Assembly: GCF_025144145.1 (NCBI RefSeq)
Contig: NZ_CP083548.1
Coordinates: forward strand, 1 to 64,000
From: Leisingera sp. M658
GTDB lineage: Bacteria; Pseudomonadota; Alphaproteobacteria; Rhodobacterales; Rhodobacteraceae
Direction: 5' to 3'
DNA: 64,000 bases
This document shows, one piece after another, positions 5,864-40,060 of this stretch. Position 1 is the stretch's first letter. The number at the start of each line of letters is the position of its first letter. The translations under genes and the position numbers were made by a program. The notes under the pieces are model-generated. The model did no database searches. It worked only from the letters and a program-made list of their open reading frames with translations, and was not told the origin of the DNA.

Positions 5864-6946
5864 ATGCGGAATTCCAGCATGTGGAAAAGTGGATCGGCAA
5901 TATTGGCCTTGCTGGCGGGAACCGGGACGGCCTGGGCGGAGGTGCCGCGTGTGGCGGCTGATATCACGCCTGTGCACGGGCTGGTGGCGCGGGTGATGCA
6001 GGGCCTGGGTGAGCCGGCCCTTGTGGTGCCGCCGGGGGCTTCGCCGCATGGCTATTCGATGCGGCCCTCGGAGGCGCGGGCGCTGGATCAGGCGGATCTG
6101 GTGTTCTGGCTGGGTGAGGCGCTGACCCCTTGGCTGCAAGGCCCGCTGGAAGAGCTGGCCGGCGGTGCGCACCGGGTAGAGCTGCTGGAGGCCGCGGGTA
6201 CCACGGTACTGCCGTTCCGTGAGGGCGCGCGGTTTGAGGCGCATGCGCATGATGATGATGAAGAGGACCATGCGGATCATGACGGTCACGATGCGCATGA
6301 AGATCATGACGGTCACGGCCATGAAGAGCATTCTGAGGGCGATGAGGATCACGACGATCATGAGGCCCATGAAGACCATGCGGATAAGGATGGCCACAGC
6401 GATCACGGTGATCATGCCCATGGCCATCACCATGACGGCGCCGACCCGCATGCCTGGCTGCTGCCGGCCAATGCCCAGGCCTGGCTTGATGTGATCGCGC
6501 AGGAACTGGCAGAGCATGATCCCGCAAATGCCGCCGCGTACAAGGCCAATGCCGAAGCCGGCAAGCAGGAGATTGCGGACACTGTTGCCAGCGTTTCGGC
6601 TGCGCTGGAGCCGTTCCGCGCCAAGCAGTTCATCGTGTTTCACGACGCCTATCAGTATTTCGAGCGCGGATTTGGATTGAATGCCGCAGGGGCAATTTCG
6701 ATCGGTGACGCCTCCAAGCCAGGTCCGGCGCGGATTGCCGAAATACGCGATGTTGTGGCGGATCTCAAGGTGGCCTGCGTCTTCTCGGAGCCGCAATTCA
6801 ACCCGGGCGTGGTCGCCACCGTGCTGGATGGCACCGGGACGGGCACTGCGGTGCTGGATCCGCTGGGTGCCAAGCTGGAAACGGGGCCGCAGTTTTACCC
6901 GGCGCTGCTGCAGGATATCGGTGCAGCGATTGCCGGCTGCAAATGA
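5864..6946 (+). CDS. znuA: Zinc ABC transporter substrate-binding protein ZnuA
   Basis: Periplasmic zinc-binding lipocalin-unrelated cluster A-I protein that delivers zinc to ZnuBC. A signal peptide (SAILALLAGTGTAWA) is followed by HGLVARVMQG and a long acidic, His-rich loop at about residues 125-195 with dozens of H/D/E, the hallmark of ZnuA. DPHAWLLPANA and FHDAYQYFERGFGL carry further metal ligands. Start choice is uncertain: ATG 5852 has no Shine-Dalgarno, ATG 5864 follows GGGG, and ATG 5894 would also leave the signal peptide intact. It diverges from zur. Confidence 0.92.
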   Translation: MRNSSMWKSGSAILALLAGTGTAWAEVPRVAADITPVHGLVARVMQGLGEPALVVPPGASPHGYSMRPSEARALDQADLVFWLGEALTPWLQGPLEELAGGAHRVELLEAAGTTVLPFREGARFEAHAHDDDEEDHADHDGHDAHEDHDGHGHEEHSEGDEDHDDHEAHEDHADKDGHSDHGDHAHGHHHDGADPHAWLLPANAQAWLDVIAQELAEHDPANAAAYKANAEAGKQEIADTVASVSAALEPFRAKQFIVFHDAYQYFERGFGLNAAGAISIGDASKPGPARIAEIRDVVADLKVACVFSEPQFNPGVVATVLDGTGTGTAVLDPLGAKLETGPQFYPALLQDIGAAIAGCK

Positions 6947-6976: not shown

Positions 6977-8248
6977 TCACCTGTCGCTGATCAGATGGGT
7001 AAGGCTGGCACCGGCCTCGTAGTAGGCGCTGCGCAGCCCTGCAAAGGGGATTGCGTGGCCTTTTGCGGGCGGGACCGGCAGGCAGGATTGGTCGCCTGTC
7101 AGCAGGGCCTCGGCCATTGCGGTGCCGAACAGGGTGCCGGGGCCGATACCGCGGCCGGAATACCCGAAACAGGCTAAGCCGCCGTTCAGATCCAGGATCT
7201 TGGGCAGGTGTTCGGTGGTCATGGCAATGCGGCCGTGCCAATGGCCATGCAGCCTTGCGTCTTTCAATTCGGGGTAAAGCGCTGCCAGTTTGCGGGGCAG
7301 CCAATTGCGGTGCAGGGCGCTGCCGAAATGGTTGAGCGCACCCATGCCGCCGATCACCAGCCGCCCGGCCTGATCCAGCCGCCAGGAGGACATCACCAGG
7401 GCGGTGTCCCAGCAGCCTTCTTTGTTTGGCAGGAGTTTGTCGAGCAGAGCGGCAGGCAGCGGATCGGTGGAGGCCTGGAAATAATGAACCGGGATCACTT
7501 GCGGCGCGCCGTAACCTGCGATCTGGCTGGCATAGGCGTTTGTGGCCATGATCAGGTGCTTGGCGCGCAGGCTGCCTCTTGGCGTCGTGACCTGCCAGCT
7601 GGTGCCGTCGCGGCTGATCGTGACGGCGGGGGCGTTGCTGTGCAGTTGCGCGCCGGCGGCCGCGGCGGCGCGGGCGAGGCCGCGGACATAGGCGAGCGGC
7701 TGGATTGTGCCTGCGCGCGGATCGAACAGGGCACCGTGCACGGCCTTGGATCCGGTGCGATGTACGGCCTCGTCGCGCGATAGCAGCTCCACCGGCGCGC
7801 CAATGGCGCGAAGCTGGCCGTGGCGGCGCTGCAGGTCTTTCAAGCCGGAGGGCGCATGCGCGCAGTGCAGGGTGCCGTTGCGTTCGGGTTCGCATTGGAT
7901 GGCGTGTTTTTCGATCAGTGAAAACACCATCTGCGGTGCGCAGCCCAGAAGCTGGGAGAGGCGGCTGCCGGTTTCCATGCCCAGTTCGGCGCTGATGCCC
8001 TCGGGCGGCAGCCAGAGGCCTGCATTCACCAGTCCGACATTGCGGCCCGAGCCGCCGCTGCCGATTTCCTCCGCTTCGATCAGGCAGACCGAGGCGCCCA
8101 TTTCTGCCGCCTTCAATGCGGCAGAGCAGCCGGTGTAGCCGCCGCCGATCACCACGAGGTCGGCCACAGCCTCCCCGATGAGTTCCGGGAAGGCTGGATT
8201 TTCCTGGCAGGTTTGGTGCCAGAGGCAGGATGCCAGATCAGATGTCAA
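6977..8248 (-). CDS. FAD-dependent amine/amino-acid oxidase (DAO family), possible L-pipecolate oxidase
   Basis: 423-residue flavoenzyme with the N-terminal dinucleotide motif VVIGGGYTGCSAAL, then EAEEIGSGGSGRNVGLVNAG, and a C-terminal YSGRGIGPGT FAD loop. TTG 8248 is preferred because AGGGG sits about seven bases upstream; it overlaps the end of the dehydrogenase gene. The oxidase/ALDH7 pair beside a LysR gene matches the amaA-amaB arrangement of Pseudomonas putida, where the oxidase converts L-pipecolate to piperideine-6-carboxylate. The substrate here is inferred from context; other cyclic or N-methyl amino acids are possible. Confidence 0.85.
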   Translation of the reverse strand: MTSDLASCLWHQTCQENPAFPELIGEAVADLVVIGGGYTGCSAALKAAEMGASVCLIEAEEIGSGGSGRNVGLVNAGLWLPPEGISAELGMETGSRLSQLLGCAPQMVFSLIEKHAIQCEPERNGTLHCAHAPSGLKDLQRRHGQLRAIGAPVELLSRDEAVHRTGSKAVHGALFDPRAGTIQPLAYVRGLARAAAAAGAQLHSNAPAVTISRDGTSWQVTTPRGSLRAKHLIMATNAYASQIAGYGAPQVIPVHYFQASTDPLPAALLDKLLPNKEGCWDTALVMSSWRLDQAGRLVIGGMGALNHFGSALHRNWLPRKLAALYPELKDARLHGHWHGRIAMTTEHLPKILDLNGGLACFGYSGRGIGPGTLFGTAMAEALLTGDQSCLPVPPAKGHAIPFAGLRSAYYEAGASLTHLISDR

Positions 8249-9740
8249 ACTTGATCCCCTGAGCAAGCGGCAGCTCGCGTGAATAGTTCACCGTGTTGGT
8301 CTGCCGGCGCATGTAGCCTTTCCAGGCGTCGGATCCGCTTTCGCGGCCGCCGCCCGTCTCCTTTTCGCCCCCGAATGCGCCGCCGATTTCAGCGCCTGAG
8401 GGGCCGATGTTCACATTGGCAATACCGCAGTCCGAGCCCGCTGCCGAGAGGAAATATTCGCATTCGCGCACGTCCGTCGAGAAGATGCAGGAGCTGAGGC
8501 CCTGGGGTACTTCGTTCTGCATTTCAATGGCTTGGTCCAGATCGCTGTATTTCACCACATAGAGGATCGGCGCGAAGGTTTCGGTGTGCATGATCGTGGT
8601 CTGGGCGGGCATCTCGACGATGGCCGGATGCACATAGGCGGCATCCCCGAAGGTGTCCGTCAAGGTTTGGCTGCCGCCATGCACGGTGCCGCCTTCTGTC
8701 TTGGCGCGCTCGAGTGCGCCCGCCATGGCGTCCAGTGCGTTGCGGTCGATCAGCGGGCCGACCAGGGTGCCGTCCGCCAGCGGGTCGCCGATGGGCAGGC
8801 CCGCGTAGGCCTTGACCAGGCGCGGGATCAGCGCGTCATAGATGTCCGCGTGCACGATCAGGCGGCGCAGGCTGGTGCAGCGCTGGCCGGCGGTGCCGAC
8901 GGCGGAAAAAACGATAGCGCGCAGGGCCATTTCCAGATCGGCAGAGGGGGCCACGATCATCGCGTTGTTGCCGCCTAGTTCCAGAATGGTGCGGCCGAGG
9001 CGATTGGACATATCCGCCGCAACCGCCTTGCCCATCGGCACCGATCCGGTGGCCGAGATGATGGCGACGTCCTTGGAGGCAGTGAGAGTCTCGCCCAGAT
9101 CGCGCTCACCGATCAGCACCCGGATCAGACCTGCGGGCGCGTCCTCGCCAAAGGCGGCCATGGCGCGGTCGCAGATTTTCTGCACCGCCAGCGCGGTGAG
9201 CGGGGTTTTCTCGGACGGTTTCCAGATCACCGGATCGCCGCAGACCAGAGCAAGTGCTGCATTCCAGCACCAGGGCGCAACGGGGAAGTTGAAGGCAGTG
9301 ATGATGCCGCAGGTGCCCATCGGGTGCCAGCTTTCGCGCATAGCGTGGCCGGGGCGCTCAGACGCAATGGTCAGGCCGTAAAGCTGGCGCGAGAGGCCGA
9401 CGGCAAAGTCGCAGATGTCGATCATCTCCTGCACTTCGCCGAGGCCTTCCTGGTAGATTTTGCCGCATTCCAAAGTGACGAGGCGGCCCAGGGTTTCCTT
9501 CTCGCGGCGCAATTCATCACCCAGAAGCCGCACCAGTTCGCCGCGGCGCGGGGCGGGCACCAGGCGCCAGGATTTGAAGGCCTCTTTGGCGGCGGAAATC
9601 TGCGCTTCGGCCTCTGCCGCGGAGTGGGTTTTCAGGCGGGCGATTTCGCTGCCGTCCACGGGAGTGGTGACGGCGAGGCTGCCGCCTGCCAGTTCGGCCT
9701 GGGTCAGGCCGGCCGCGGCGAGGATATCGGAATGGGGCAT
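8238..9740 (-). CDS. amaB: ALDH7-family aldehyde dehydrogenase (likely 2-aminoadipate 6-semialdehyde / piperideine-6-carboxylate dehydrogenase)
   Basis: 500-residue NAD-dependent aldehyde dehydrogenase. ATG 9740 has AAGGA upstream. The general-base region (ILELGGNNAMIV) and catalytic Cys (GTAGQRCTSLRRL) are intact, and GGEKETGGGRESGSDAWK near the C-terminus is typical of ALDH7/AmaB. It would oxidise the semialdehyde from the adjacent flavin oxidase to 2-aminoadipate in lysine/pipecolate breakdown. It is upstream of and overlaps the oxidase, so the two are co-transcribed. The divergent LysR at 9878 is the probable regulator. Confidence 0.9.
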   Translation of the reverse strand: MPHSDILAAAGLTQAELAGGSLAVTTPVDGSEIARLKTHSAAEAEAQISAAKEAFKSWRLVPAPRRGELVRLLGDELRREKETLGRLVTLECGKIYQEGLGEVQEMIDICDFAVGLSRQLYGLTIASERPGHAMRESWHPMGTCGIITAFNFPVAPWCWNAALALVCGDPVIWKPSEKTPLTALAVQKICDRAMAAFGEDAPAGLIRVLIGERDLGETLTASKDVAIISATGSVPMGKAVAADMSNRLGRTILELGGNNAMIVAPSADLEMALRAIVFSAVGTAGQRCTSLRRLIVHADIYDALIPRLVKAYAGLPIGDPLADGTLVGPLIDRNALDAMAGALERAKTEGGTVHGGSQTLTDTFGDAAYVHPAIVEMPAQTTIMHTETFAPILYVVKYSDLDQAIEMQNEVPQGLSSCIFSTDVRECEYFLSAAGSDCGIANVNIGPSGAEIGGAFGGEKETGGGRESGSDAWKGYMRRQTNTVNYSRELPLAQGIKFDI

Positions 9741-33655: not shown

Positions 33656-34049
33656 GAGTTGCATTTTAGAGGCTGGCGCGCGCCAACAGGCTTTGTTCCG
33701 GGCGCCCGCACAAGACCCGCAACTTAATAGTTGAAATCAACCGCGGCGAACGGACGGATTAGAAATCCACTCACTGACGTGATTATGAAAGATCGGTTTG
33801 GAGGAAAGCACTCTGCACACCAGGCAGCGGACGCGGGCGCAAACCAGTGTGAGTGTCTTCTGCAAGTGCATTCGGCGCAGCGGCGTTAGTTCGCATTGTC
33901 CCGCAACTTTCGAGTTCGTGTGCGGCGCAGCGAAGGGCTGTTCTCGTTCAGGGTGATGCGAAAAGGACCCTTTTTGCAGCAGTGAAGGCCGCTCCCATAA
34001 TGCATTGATTTTCCTAGCACTGGACTGACGCAAAAACCCTAGGCAAAAT
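33656..34049. other. Gap before the TniBQ module, possible transposon end/res site
   Basis: About 390 bases without a convincing gene. The inverted repeat TTGGCGCGCGCCAA-like (33675-33686) lies shortly after the hydrolase. Close to the recombinase start are short AT-rich repeats (TTTTCCTAG at 34010 and CCCTAGGCAAAAT at 34037) of the kind seen in resolvase res sites. I could not locate a matching terminal repeat on the other side of the module. Confidence 0.35.
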
Positions 34050-34991
34050 ATGCACATGAAAATCGGCTATGCGCGGGTATCAACGGAGGAACAAAACCTC
34101 GATCTACAAATCGAGGCTCTGACCGAAGCTGGATGCGACCGTATTGTCACCGATCAGGCAAAGAGCGGCGCAACCGCGGCCGAGACGCGTTCCGGTTTCT
34201 CAGAAGCAATGGAGCTGTTGGATGAGGGTGACTTATTGGTGGTCTGGAAGCTGGACAGGGTAGGGCGGTCCATCGCTGACCTCGTTCACCTTCTGAAACT
34301 CTTTGGAGATCGCGGTATCGAGTTTCGCAGTCTGACGGACGGAATAGACACGACGACTGCAGGGGGGCGCTTAGTATTTCACATTATGGGAGCATTAGCT
34401 GAATTCGAGCGGGACCTGATCCAGGAACGGACGAAGGCCGGTCTTCGCGCTGCGAAGAAGCGCGGCAAGCAGCTAGGCCGACCGCCTGTTCTTTCCGCCG
34501 CTCAAATCGCGCACGCCAGGACTGCGATCGCAACCAAGCGGGAAACTGTTTCAGGCATGGCGGAGATTCTTGGCGTAAACCGAAGCACGCTGCAGCGTGC
34601 AATGTCGCGTGATGAACGGGTGGGCGCCAGGCCGCCAAGCTGCGGCGTGAAAGATGTCATGCTCAAGTACGACCCTACTGACATTCGGATGGTGCACATC
34701 AGTGCAGATGAAGAAATCTTTCATGAGGCCAGAAGCGAGCATTTTCCGCGCAATCCTCTGTCTTTAGATGACTGGCACGAACAACGAAAACGTAGAGAAG
34801 AACGGCTGCAAGCAGCGATGAACGTGCCCAACCCCGTCGCTGCACACGACTATCGCAAGCAAATCTTGTCGGAAGCAAATCGACGAAAGAAGGCAGTTAG
34901 CCACTTCGAAGCACTTCCTCAATCACAAGGTTGCGATATTCGCGATCTTAGTGGGCCACGAGGCTTTTCTGTGCCGAGGAAGTTGTCATGA
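34050..34991 (+). CDS. Serine recombinase fused to a TniA/TnsB-like C-terminal tail
   Basis: 313 residues. Residues 1-190 are a complete resolvase/invertase: catalytic MKIGYARVSTEEQNLDLQ with the nucleophile Ser, KLDRVGRS, EFERDLIQERTKAGL, and a C-terminal HTH (MAEILGVNRSTLQRAM). Residues about 200-313 do not belong to resolvases. They read VMLKYDPTDIRMVHISADEE, then RNPLSLDDWHEQRKRREERL, then DYRKQILSEANRRKKAVSHF, resembling the beta-barrel and tail of Mu/TniA transposases. The DDE core is absent. Start is ATG 34050 or 34056. The stop overlaps tniB by four bases, so the module stays translationally coupled. Confidence 0.78.
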   Translation: MHMKIGYARVSTEEQNLDLQIEALTEAGCDRIVTDQAKSGATAAETRSGFSEAMELLDEGDLLVVWKLDRVGRSIADLVHLLKLFGDRGIEFRSLTDGIDTTTAGGRLVFHIMGALAEFERDLIQERTKAGLRAAKKRGKQLGRPPVLSAAQIAHARTAIATKRETVSGMAEILGVNRSTLQRAMSRDERVGARPPSCGVKDVMLKYDPTDIRMVHISADEEIFHEARSEHFPRNPLSLDDWHEQRKRREERLQAAMNVPNPVAAHDYRKQILSEANRRKKAVSHFEALPQSQGCDIRDLSGPRGFSVPRKLS

Positions 34992-35857
34992 GAAAAACGC
35001 CATCTCAACACTTCGCGGACATGTCGCAGGCGCCGGTACCCGAGCGAATTCATTACGTTCGCACCGGGGCGTTTTTTGAAACATCAGCTATTCGCGCGCT
35101 TAGAGATCGATTGGATGAACTGATCCGTGAGCCGGTAGACTGCGAGAACAAGCTTGTATTCATAACCGCCCCGGCTGGGATGGGATTGACCCGAATTATC
35201 AAGCAATTTGCAGCACAGCACCCCCCAAAGACGAGTAGGCGACGCGGCAGGCACACGGTTCCGCTCGTGAACCAGCTCATCCATCCGAGCGGTGACTTCA
35301 TTGACTATTGCGATGCACTCCGCACGAACCTCGACATTCCAGGATACGGCGCAATGACACGCCGATCCTCTTACCCAAAGACCCTCGAGTTATTAGGGCA
35401 TTTGAAAACGCGGCTCGTAATCTTGGAGGATTTTCACCGCGCCTACAGTTTTCAAAAACATCAATTGATATCGTATCAGAATTACGTCCACTACCTGATT
35501 TCCGAATACGATATCAGGGTCATCCTTACAGGAGCTCCGCGCATATGGCGATGGGCATTGGAAGACGAACAGACTTTAGGGCGATCAGTTCACCTTCAGT
35601 ATCGGGCCTGGACACCAAGCGAGGATGACTTCATCGAGTTTCTTGAAGGGTTTGAACGATGGTGTCCGGTTAGAGAAGAGGGGGCTCTGTCGCGCGATCC
35701 CAAACTTCGCAAGGCAATTATCAGCCGGACCCATGGTATCTGCAAAAGCGTGATGCAAGTGCTCACCGGCCTTGCAATTTATGCGATTGTGTCTGGCAGT
35801 GAGCGCCTGGATTTCGACACGTGGATAAGCTTTCGGGACCAAGGGCTATCGATATGA
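34988..35857 (+). CDS. tniB: TniB-like AAA+ transposition protein with altered Walker A
   Basis: 289 residues, usual TniB length. Layout follows TniB: RALRDRLDELIREP, P-loop region VFITAPAGMGLTRIIKQF, Walker B-like LVILEDFHRA, sensor region VILTGAPRIWRWAL, then a C-terminal helical domain. In the P-loop the Gly-Lys-Thr/Ser signature is replaced by Gly-Leu-Thr, so the ATP-binding lysine is missing, and Walker B has Glu-Asp rather than Asp-Glu. TniB normally bridges TniA and TniQ as a nucleotide-bound filament; this copy may work without hydrolysis or be decayed. It overlaps both neighbours by four bases. Confidence 0.82.
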   Translation: MRKTPSQHFADMSQAPVPERIHYVRTGAFFETSAIRALRDRLDELIREPVDCENKLVFITAPAGMGLTRIIKQFAAQHPPKTSRRRGRHTVPLVNQLIHPSGDFIDYCDALRTNLDIPGYGAMTRRSSYPKTLELLGHLKTRLVILEDFHRAYSFQKHQLISYQNYVHYLISEYDIRVILTGAPRIWRWALEDEQTLGRSVHLQYRAWTPSEDDFIEFLEGFERWCPVREEGALSRDPKLRKAIISRTHGICKSVMQVLTGLAIYAIVSGSERLDFDTWISFRDQGLSI

Positions 35858-36900
35858 GCGTCACACCCTATGCGATGGAAAGCCTGACTTCATTCGTAAG
35901 CCGCGCGGCTGCAATGCATTCGACTGATCCCCGGTCCTACCTTCGCAGGCTCTTTCCGTCAGATAGCTACCAGGACATCGCAAGATTTCCTGAAGATCTG
36001 GACGCACTAGATCAAGGTGCCATTCTAGCTGGTCTGAACAATGCGCTGGACTCTGCGAAGCGCAGGCTGGAATTGCTCACCTTCCCCGGCGCAAAACCTG
36101 GCGTTCATACCAAGTGGTTGAGGCGGGCAGGTGGGATTCATTTGGGTTTTGACCAATTCAGCACGACACCCTCTTTCGCGTGGTGTCCACGTTGCCTTCT
36201 CCGCGACCAACTCGATGGCCACGATCAATTCATGCGATTGTCTTGGAGGTTGATCACACAGACGTTTTGCCTAGTTCATAGGAGACCGCTTACCACTCAT
36301 TGCCTGGCCTGCTATGATTGCGAGGCAGAGACGGCATTCGTTTTCGACGGCGCCAACGTTGTGCTCGCGTGTAGCGCATGCGGCTCACTCTATTCGACGC
36401 AGCTTGGCCTGCCTGATATGTCTGCCTCGACCACTCTGCGACTGCATAACAACCGGCGTGTACAGATTGCTTGGAATGGGGCAATCCAACTGGAAATGGC
36501 ACTCGAAAGGAGCCTGTCGGAGCGGTCTAAAACCAAGAACAAAAGTGAATTCCTTGACTTTGTTATGGCTTTTGCAAACGTGCTGTTGAAATCCGGTCGG
36601 GGCGGGAGGGCGCCGATTGATCTCTTTTCCAGTGTTGCGTTCCCATCGCGGCCAAACCCGCATAACATCACGTCAATGGATCGGCCTTACCGAGCATCTT
36701 CGATCGCAGTTACCCGCAAAACACACGGTTTCATCGCAACCATTTTGAAGCGCCGCGTGAACCTGTTCTCAATAAAGGGCGTGCATGAGAAACGTTGGGG
36801 TAGGGAGCCCTCAATGCAAGAGCTACGATCCGAACTCGAGCCGGATCAGAACGATGAGCTCGATCAGTTACTATTGAGATTTCCTGCAAAATGGTTCTGA
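35854..36900 (+). CDS. tniQ: TniQ-family target-site protein
   Basis: 348 residues. ATG 35854 overlaps the tniB stop (ATGA). The N-terminal TniQ domain begins with ESLTSFVSRAAAMH, and zinc-finger pairs are intact: CPRC (residue about 112), CLVH (about 142), CLAC (about 153), CSAC (about 179). TniQ proteins choose the target for Tn5053/Tn7-like transposons and link to the TniB/TnsC ATPase. No TniA gene lies in the window and no Cascade or other targeting gene adjoins it. It is followed at once by an IS1182/IS5-like element. Confidence 0.85.
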   Translation: MSVTPYAMESLTSFVSRAAAMHSTDPRSYLRRLFPSDSYQDIARFPEDLDALDQGAILAGLNNALDSAKRRLELLTFPGAKPGVHTKWLRRAGGIHLGFDQFSTTPSFAWCPRCLLRDQLDGHDQFMRLSWRLITQTFCLVHRRPLTTHCLACYDCEAETAFVFDGANVVLACSACGSLYSTQLGLPDMSASTTLRLHNNRRVQIAWNGAIQLEMALERSLSERSKTKNKSEFLDFVMAFANVLLKSGRGGRAPIDLFSSVAFPSRPNPHNITSMDRPYRASSIAVTRKTHGFIATILKRRVNLFSIKGVHEKRWGREPSMQELRSELEPDQNDELDQLLLRFPAKWF

Positions 36901-36989
36901 GGGCTTCGGGCGTATTCCGTTGAAAAACTCCTTCTTGATTGAGATGCCCGCGGCTGGTTCAATTCCCTCATTAGGTGGGAGGATCGGCG

Positions 36990-37860
36990 ATGATGGGACC
37001 GCGGCAAGAGGCGCAACCGGCGCTATTTTACGAGTTCTCGCTCGAGGATCATGTCCCGCAAAACCATTTCCTGCGCTCCATCGACCGGTTTGTGGATCTG
37101 TCCGGGATCCGCAGCTACCTTGCCGGTTTCTACAGCCATACAGGTCGGCCTTCGATTGATCCCGAGCTGCTGATCCGCATGTTGCTGGTCGGCTATTGCT
37201 TCGGCATCCGGTCGGAACGGCGGCTGTGTGAAGAGGTCCACCTGAACCTCGCCTATCGCTGGTTCTGCCGCCTTGATCTGAGCGACCGGGTCCCGGATCA
37301 CTCGACCTTCTCCAAGAACCGCCCCTTTCGGCAGATTGCTTCGCAATCGCCTGCCGGGCAATGCATGGTCGGTTCCGGGACAGCGAACTGTTGCGGCATC
37401 TCTTCGAGACAACCGTCGCGCGGTGTATCGAAGAGGGTCTGGTCAGCGGGCAGCGCATGGCCATCGATGCCAGCCTGATCGAAGCCGATGCCAACAAGCA
37501 AAATTCTACGCCTAAGGAAGAATGGGACGTCAGGCAGATCGATCCCGCCGATGCGCCTCGGGCGGTCCGTGAGTATCTCGACACCCTGGACGAGGCTGCC
37601 TTCGGCGCGGCCAGCGAGGTTCAGCCAAAGTTTACGTCCCATTCCGACCCTGCCAGTCAATGGACCGCAGCCCGCAAGGGTCCGGCCTTCTTCAGCTATT
37701 CCGACAATTACCTGATCGACACGGACCACGGCGTCATCGTGGACGTGGAGGCGACGAGATCAATCCGCCAAGCCGAAGTTGGGTCGACCAAGACCATGCT
37801 CGAGCGCGTGAAGGCGAGGTTCGACCTCCACCCTGAGCGCCTGATCGCAGACACCGCCTA
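36990..37860 (+). pseudogene. IS1182/IS5-like transposase, interrupted and 3'-truncated
   Basis: DDE transposase with an N-terminal DUF772-type domain (EFSLEDHVPQNHFLRSIDRF, HTGRPSIDPELLIRMLLVGY, DHSTFSKNR) and the start of the catalytic domain (MAIDASLIEADANKQNSTP, FFSYSDNYLIDTDHGVIVDV). ATG 36990 has GGAGG upstream. The frame is broken at 37322-37363 by a 41/42-base insertion; downstream it continues as HGRFRDSELLRHLFETTVAR. It then stops at LIADTAY where the LysE element begins, so the last quarter is gone. Confidence 0.85.
37322..37363. repeat. 42-bp two-hairpin micro-element, copy 2 (inside IS1182/IS5-like transposase)
   Basis: Begins CCCCTTTCGGCA and ends GCCGGGCAATG. Hairpin 1 is GATTGC-TTC-GCAATC. 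Compared with copy 1 (CATTGC...GCAATG), the closing C-G pair is G-C here: both bases changed together, so the stem is kept. Hairpin 2 is weaker in this copy. Removal of 41 bases restores the reading frame KNR-HGRFRDSE exactly. Confidence 0.78.
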
Positions 37861-38000
37861 TCTTGAGATCATCCGGGTTTGGGCGCGAGATCATCGGCGT
37901 ATCCAGCTCAGATTTTTTGAGACTCAAAATCGCCGCTGGCTCACAATGCTTGCGACTGAGCGCAGATTACCTGAGACGGGCTCACGTCGCTGAGACTGAG
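37861..38000 (+). repeat. Left 140-bp terminal inverted repeat of the LysE element
   Basis: Contains several CTGAGAC/GAGAC motifs in tandem, probably multiple transposase-binding sites. It matches 39045-39184 in inverse orientation, colinear from end to end. Confidence 0.8.
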
Positions 38001-38093
38001 CATATCACACCGGGTTGGTGGTCCGAGAACAGCCGTTCACGGTATCGGACCCGAACAGGTAAGACGCCGGACTTTGCTGCCGTTCAGCCCCGT

Positions 38094-39044: not shown

Positions 39045-39184
39045 CTGAGTCTCAGCAATGTGAGCCCGTCTCAGATAATCTGCGCTCAGTCGCAAGCATT
39101 GTGAGCCAGAGTATAATTATGGTCTCAGACAATCTGAGCCGAAAACGGCGATGATCTCGCGCCCGACGATTTATGATCTCAAGA
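39045..39184 (-). repeat. Right 140-bp terminal inverted repeat of the LysE element
   Basis: Inverse complement of the left repeat, ending in ATGATCTCAAGA at 39173-39184. Immediately outside is the 5' flank of an IS110 fragment, not the missing end of the left-hand transposase, so at least one rearrangement has occurred. Confidence 0.8.
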
Positions 39185-39277
39185 TACCGTAATGGGCTGC
39201 TCAAGCCGCGTGTTTGGTTACAAGCTCCTCGTGAAGGGAAGTGGATTGTCCACCTTCCGTGTCAGCAGGAGGATATC

Positions 39278-39646
39278 ATGGAAGTCTATATCGGGGTCGA
39301 TGTGTCACTGGAATTGTCGAGTGTCTGCGTGGTCGACCGCGCCGGCCAGGTGATACGTGAGACAAAGGTTGCAAGTGAACCCGATGCGTTAGTCGATTTC
39401 TGTTGTTCATTGAGCCAACAGATCGTGTTGATTGGCATGGAAGCGGGGCCTTTATCGCAATGGTTGTTCGCTGGGTTGACTGAAGCAGGACAAAAGCCGG
39501 TTTTGATGGAGACCCGCCAAGTCAAATCTGCGCTACAGGCGATGCCAGTCAAAACCGACCGGCGCGATGCACACGGGATTGCCCAACTCTTGCGCACTGG
39601 TTGGTTTCGGCCAGTGCATTGCAAATCAATCTCGGCGCAGGAGATC
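39278..39646 (+). pseudogene. IS110-family transposase N-terminal fragment
   Basis: About 122 residues: the DEDD (RuvC-like) domain start MEVYIGVDVSLELSSVCVVD, GMEAGPLSQWL, and LMETRQVKSALQAMPVKTDR followed by DAHGIAQLLRTGWFRPVHCK. ATG 39278 has AGGAGG upstream. The family's remaining 200 or more residues, including the Tnp_IS116 domain with its catalytic Ser, are missing; after SAQE the frame enters a pirin sequence without a stop. Non-functional as a transposase. Confidence 0.85.
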
Positions 39647-40060
39647 CCCAGTGTCGGCCTGGCTGATGACGCAGGGCGGCTGCGGGTCATCGCAGGCGGC
39701 TACAGCGGCCGAACGGGGCCCGCTCGTACCTTCACACCGATTGAGGTCTGGGATCTGCGATTGAACGCGGAAAAAGGCATCTCCCTGGCACCGCCGGAGG
39801 GCCAGAACGTGACGGTAGTTGTCCCGGACGGCGAGGTGTCGATCAACGGTAGCGCCCCTCTGGCGGGCCCGGCAACAGCGCGTCTCGGGAACGAGGGGGA
39901 CATCAGGCTGGAGGCTGCGACCAGCGCCAAGCTTCTGATCCTGTCAGGTGAGCCGATTGACGAGCCGGTTGCCGCCTATGGGCCCTTTGTGATGAACACC
40001 CAGGATGAAATCCATCAGGCGATTTCCGAATTTCAGTCCGGAAAGTTCGGCACTCTGTAA
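39644..40060 (+). pseudogene. Pirin C-terminal fragment fused to the IS110 fragment
   Basis: About 138 residues, from DDAGRLRVIAGGYSGRTGPA through TFTPIEVWDLRLNAEKG to MNTQDEIHQAISEFQSGKFG. This is the C-terminal cupin and tail of a pirin-family protein of the YhhW/plant-pirin type. The N-terminal cupin with the iron ligands (three His and Glu) is absent, so quercetinase-type activity is lost. The join with the IS110 part is in frame, giving a potential chimera of 260 residues. The adjacent convergent gene encodes an electrophile-detoxification enzyme, a usual pirin companion. Confidence 0.82.

Follow-up and report, generated by a model that had tools for sequence, protein, structure and literature searches.

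Gene content of the locus

We analyzed the first 64,000 nt of contig NZ_CP083548.1 of Leisingera sp. M658 (hereafter, the window), in which one open frame at 34050-34991 (313 amino acids) encodes a whole serine resolvase that runs directly into the C-terminus of a TniA transposase. Intact frames for tniB and tniQ follow (Table 1). The original prediction had described three frames joined by ATGA overlaps, the first of them a full resolvase with a TniA-like tail, and this description was confirmed. The resolvase part matched the Pfam Resolvase family (5.6e-46, residues 5-140) and shared 94% amino acid identity with the resolvase of Leisingera NJS201. The tail, which carries the motif KYDPTD, was identical over all 117 amino acids to the C-terminus of TniA from Leisingera M527, with 0 of 351 nucleotides different. 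Judged by this identity, the TniA origin of the tail is certain.

Table 1. Features at the fused locus, in window coordinates
Feature	Position	Strand	Remarks
Leader with palindrome GCGAAAAGGACCCTTTTTGC	33954..34049	+	resolvase-site-like, possibly where res crossover takes place
Serine resolvase part of the chimeric ORF	34050..34637	+	residues 1-196; catalytic domain and HTH
Probable deletion junction	34637..34638	.	resolvase sequence to the left, tniA sequence to the right
3′-terminal 117 codons and stop of tniA, continuing the resolvase frame	34638..34991	+	without DDE motifs
tniB (AAA+ ATPase), intact frame	34988..35857	+	289 aa; Pfam TniB 5e-17
tniQ, intact frame	35854..36900	+	Pfam TniQ 3.7e-16
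IS1182-type insertion sequence, damaged	36908..37861 (approximate)	+	directly behind tniQ; matches IS1182-family genes

Separate relatives of the resolvase measure 200 amino acids in NJS201 (locus L009), 189 in loci L037 and L038, and 187 in L028. Set against the position of the join, the proteins of L028, L037, and L038 stop before it, and that of NJS201 extends six residues beyond. As both the catalytic domain and the HTH are retained in the resolvase part and its relatives end near the join, we predict that the fused protein may be a working or near-working resolvase. The palindromic leader also precedes this resolvase in L009, L034, L037, and L038 and, in part, in L028, and homology in further plasmids likewise starts near 33953-33958, ahead of the resolvase. 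This conservation suggests that the leader is perhaps the res site of the resolvase.

Of the Mu-transpos_C domain, the first half is missing from the tail; the region beyond the domain is retained whole. The original prediction named a search with the Mu-transpos_C profile (PF09299) as a check, and the tail did not pass it. The whole 313-residue protein had no Mu-transpos_C match in Pfam, and the tail alone (34629-34988) reached 12.9 bits (E = 0.12), below the Pfam gathering cut-off of 21.7 bits. Only profile positions 35-55 of 61 were covered, indicating that the domain has been cut. When a profile of the tail alone was compared with solved structures, nothing meaningful was matched (best E 0.33). 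The tail of the fused protein is unable to transpose by itself.

Downstream of the fusion, TniB was 100% identical to its M527 counterpart (1 of 867 nucleotides different) and TniQ was 98.9% identical (9 of 1,044 nucleotides different, 4 of these in amino-acid-changing codons). The tniQ frame is listed from a GTG at 35821; starting it from the ATG at 35854 gives a protein of 348 amino acids, creates the ATGA overlap, and agrees with the M527 start. The overlaps between tniA and tniB and between tniB and tniQ are also found in the unfused modules of NJS201, M527, and A. crassostreae S204, and therefore the coupling of the three frames is uninformative about the fusion. The host genome holds a single copy of tniB and of the tail. 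Its tniA-like frames comprised two distant matches only (24% and 25%), both in long open frames, and no close tniA relative was found elsewhere in the genome. For this reason, tniB and tniQ are most likely stranded remnants of a parent module.

The junction and the missing DNA

The matches to the two source genes change over at one point. At the protein level, residues 3-197 matched the NJS201 resolvase (94%) and residues 197-313 the M527 Mu-type transposase (100%). In nucleotide alignments, the NJS201 match on the left stops at 34637, and the tniA matches of both NJS201 and M527 start at 34637. Of the 100 nt preceding the join, 95 agreed with the NJS201 resolvase and 28 with M527 tniA; of the 100 nt that follow it, all 100 agreed with M527 tniA and 27 with the NJS201 resolvase region. 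With 1 bp shared between the left and right matches, illegitimate recombination seems the likely mechanism.

Because each half has its own closest relative, an assembly error joining two repeats or two copies of the module could also be suspected. We consider such an error very improbable. The tail and tniB are each present once in the genome, and the other resolvases in it are distant (40% or less), leaving no copies to confuse. Moreover, agreement with the wrong parent was at the level of chance on each side of the join (6 of 20 in both cases), and the genome was assembled into 7 contigs and scored 100% complete.

Measured in NJS201 coordinates, the window lacks about 2.74 kb, including the candidate DDE motifs. 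These lie at residues 172, 256, and 291 of NJS201 TniA, which we take to be the catalytic residues from TnsB alignments and general knowledge of the family. The tail begins at residue 416 of the 532-residue TniA, within the Mu-transpos_C domain that spans residues 386-440 in NJS201. The complete NJS201 protein passes the Mu-transpos_C cut-off (4.7e-11, 43 bits), scores 0.0005 against the rve integrase core (20.7 bits, under the family cut-off of 32.6), and matches the TnsB chains of solved structures (e.g., 7svw, 3.1e-24).

Unfused relatives and the origin of the fusion

On plasmid unnamed4 of NJS201 (NZ_CP038238.1), a distance of 1.5 kb separates a resolvase gene (locus 6001-6603) from a 532-residue tniA downstream of it (8081-9679), and resolvase, tniA, tniB, and tniQ are all on the same strand. 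The gap between resolvase and tniA holds a Phd-type antitoxin gene, a hypothetical gene on the other strand, and an HTH gene. This module is also damaged, as its tniQ (L009 10542-11587) is broken into two overlapping frames. In A. crassostreae S204 (NZ_CP080785.1), the order is resolvase, Phd-type antitoxin, HTH, 532-residue tniA, tniB, and full tniQ. In A. crassostreae S128 (NZ_CP080779.1), the order is that of S204, but the annotation gives tniA and tniQ later starts and shows no separate HTH gene. Aliiroseovarius sp. S1339 (L034) carries a resolvase gene followed by tniA, tniB, and tniQ. Plasmid unnamed4 of M527 (NZ_CP081041.1) carries tniA, tniB, and tniQ with no adjacent resolvase.

The tni half of the locus was 99.5% identical at the nucleotide level to M527, where tniA is of full length and has no resolvase alongside. 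Compared with NJS201, identity was 86% over the resolvase and 92% over the tni half (including the first part of the IS1182-type element), but there tniA is of full length and apart from the resolvase, whereas in the window the two are fused. The S204 and S128 modules share the gene order of the window at 70-77% nucleotide identity, and their genes are unfused. Because the resolvase half is nearest to NJS201, the tni half is nearest to M527, and M527 has no resolvase, we infer the parent module from its relatives only; the exact parent is not among the genomes compared. On these sequence comparisons, the nearest relatives of the locus are in Leisingera, and the host is a roseobacter.

The first of the two alternatives in the original prediction, that a deletion fused a resolvase gene to tniA, is strongly supported by these relatives, in which the presumed parents stand as separate genes of one module, and by the sharpness of the join. 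We estimate a probability of about 0.95 that the fused gene is a scar in a Tn5053-like tni module, however it was formed and including a route in which the resolvase was added. In the parent, a res-like site and a resolvase gene would have been followed by small genes and then tniA, tniB, and tniQ, all oriented the same way. A recent deletion of ~2.7 kb would then have run from the last resolvase codons to codon 416 of tniA, with the reading frame preserved by chance. A single deletion event is the presumed cause, and one would be enough because NJS201, S128, S204, and S1339 have a close resolvase ahead of tniA and oriented like it. The product would be a resolvase with a 117-residue TniA tail that possibly touches TniB and has no evolved purpose.

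Within this scar reading, a different route can be envisaged, in which a res-resolvase unit arrived beside tniA or within it, and tniA subsequently lost its 5′ part. By sequence comparison, the resolvase is an exchangeable neighbor of tni modules: close relatives of it occur on plasmids without a close tniA, the tni regions of loci L034 and L035 are 87% alike yet accompanied by different resolvases, and M527 has none. Still, NJS201, S128, S204, and S1339 already hold a closely related resolvase upstream of tniA, and we regard arrival followed by loss as unlikely.

The resolvases of L034 (2033-2593) and L035 (3133-3669) share 90% and 36% amino acid identity, respectively, with that of the window, and close relatives of the L034-type resolvase sit on plasmids on which no close tniA is visible. 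The resolvase was perhaps a former target of res-site-directed insertion.

The locus resembles the Tn5053/Tn402 family of res-site hunter transposons in that both combine tniA-tniB-tniQ genes with a resolvase and, putatively in the window, its res site. In one account of the family, the order is given as tniABQ-res-tniR, with 25 bp inverted repeats (PMC7765201). The resolvase is last in those elements, whereas in the window it lies upstream of the tni genes and is fused to them. The same account also describes defective members of the Tn5053 family that retain remnants of tniA and tniR (PMC7765201). Compared with an intact Tn5053/Tn402-type element, the locus has tniB, tniQ, and a serine resolvase gene but no tniA with a DDE core, as only codons 416-532 are left.

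Search for the fusion elsewhere

The original prediction proposed a search of other genomes for the same fusion, and none was found in the records examined. We ran a six-frame search with the 313-residue protein over 72,556 plasmid records and considered the best 5,000 matching records, among which the fusion was not found. In 2 of these 5,000, both from Photobacterium, a single place covered at least 80% of the query; one of the two was examined (83% of the query) and rejected because the match runs through stop codons. The longest matches outside the roseobacters also included Sphingobium and Rhodococcus plasmids (75% of the query each), where the annotated genes are separate resolvases. The separate resolvases annotated in Photobacterium, Sphingobium, and Rhodococcus are 188, 190, and 182 amino acids long, respectively.

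Within the genus, the fusion was absent from the 20 other genomes examined. In a DNA search of 21 genomes, including that of the host, three matched, and the tail, tniB, and tniQ were matched in the host genome only. Genome G013 matched in the resolvase alone. At G010:C14:146034-146225, two short adjacent pieces correspond to the leader and start of the resolvase gene and to a later part of it, as if the middle of the gene had been lost there too.

Across the family, the tail protein was matched in 9 of 394 sampled genomes, the host included. Outside the host genome there were 12 such places, 10 of which had a transposase motif in the same frame; one (L020) was a short frame beginning inside the tail, and one (L017) was not located by motif search. 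A resolvase motif was present in 0 of the 11 non-host tail frames read. A tail-profile scan of GTDB contigs gave three relatives, all with the rest of TniA upstream, which in one of them (L036) is broken by a stop codon. The exact join was found in 0 viral contigs, and no report of a serine recombinase fusion with TniB and TniQ was found in the open-licence literature searched.

Age of the fusion and possible function

Over the 2,260 nt that run from the join through tniQ, the window differed from M527 at 10 positions, none of them in the tail. Because the tail is unchanged since the split from M527, selection on the fusion cannot be shown, and the comparison of window and M527 gave no sign of selection on the fused gene. 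For the unfused tails of M527 and NJS201, 7 differences fell in synonymous and 8 in non-synonymous codons. At near-zero divergence, frames would be expected to stay open with or without a use for the product, which removes the force of the earlier argument that three intact frames speak against decay.

As for the second alternative in the original prediction, we find it exceedingly improbable that the locus is a new targeted recombinase module, in which the TniA tail recruits TniB and TniQ for a serine recombinase and the arrangement is kept by selection. The open frame is coupled to intact tniB and tniQ, and aligned TniA relatives show conserved residues close to their far C-terminal end, as this proposal would have it. 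However, the records examined contain no second copy of the fusion, the lack of change in the tail leaves selection impossible to demonstrate, and half of the Mu-transpos_C domain has been lost. The ShCAST system bears on the proposal in both directions. The 117-residue tail is about the size of the C-terminal fragment of ShCAST TnsB, the last 109 residues of which were used to bind TnsC, with the last 15 acting as a hook on TnsC, according to the ShCAST study (PMC9371665). On the other hand, such C-terminal fragments, as that study describes them, bound and decorated TnsC filaments and were not enough to disassemble them (PMC9371665).

By analogy with ShCAST, the fused tail, which includes a stretch resembling the part of TnsB that holds TnsC, could touch TniB. 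A fused resolvase that is active and docked on TniB filaments by its TniA C-terminus, with recombination or the choice of res site steered by TniB and TniQ, strikes us as very doubtful. Still, some use for a fused gene that is open and resolvase-complete is possible. If true, a TniB-steered resolvase would be a natural one-step example of a recombinase swap in a Tn7-like system.

The scar reading carries a caution: even when an in-frame fusion is linked to intact neighbors by ATGA overlaps, it can be a deletion scar of very recent date. It is the parent operon that supplied the overlaps, and at almost no divergence an open frame tells one little. The locus is also a clean case of how a deletion can join a TniA C-terminus, perhaps still able to contact TniB, to an unrelated recombinase.

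Ends and surroundings of the module

No terminal inverted repeats were found in L009, L034, L037, and L038 with 14-mers at up to 2 mismatches, and a scan with 16-mers at up to 3 mismatches in L008, L034, L035, L037, and L038 gave a single weak site each in L008 and L037; both scans covered about 110-590 bp per side. With no terminal inverted repeats recognized, the term "transposon" rests here on the genes of the module. Minus-strand BLAST gave 23 bp at 83% within M527 and 23 bp at 87% between the left side of the window and the right side of M527. Many of the short minus-strand matches of M527 and the window contain GCAGCGAA or a variant, and we took these for dispersed repeats.

The roseobacter tniABQ modules (L008, L009, L034, L035, L037, and L038) were all without recognizable terminal inverted repeats in the ends scanned. 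The unit common to S128 and S204 starts just before the res-like palindrome and ends ~8 bases past tniQ.

Behind tniQ, the match to NJS201 continues unbroken into the IS1182-type element as far as 37331. The match to M527 stops at 36919 and resumes at 38066, such that the element has no M527 counterpart at this locus. A DUF772 match (5.6e-25) lies within 36975-37475, and 36990-37990 read as a single frame contains four stops. The surroundings of the locus are a mosaic.

A second chimeric frame lies at 39173-40060 on the plus strand, 2.3 kb past tniQ, and joins an IS110 transposase in frame to a pirin (IS110 N-terminal part, 1.6e-12; pirin C-terminal domain, 3.1e-26). With two in-frame chimeras within about 6 kb, rearrangement fits better than design. 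A 142-bp inverted repeat, 82% identical, flanks the stretch that follows the IS1182-type element, at 37859-38000 and 39045-39186, and the gene between its two copies has an M527 counterpart annotated as a LysE family translocator.
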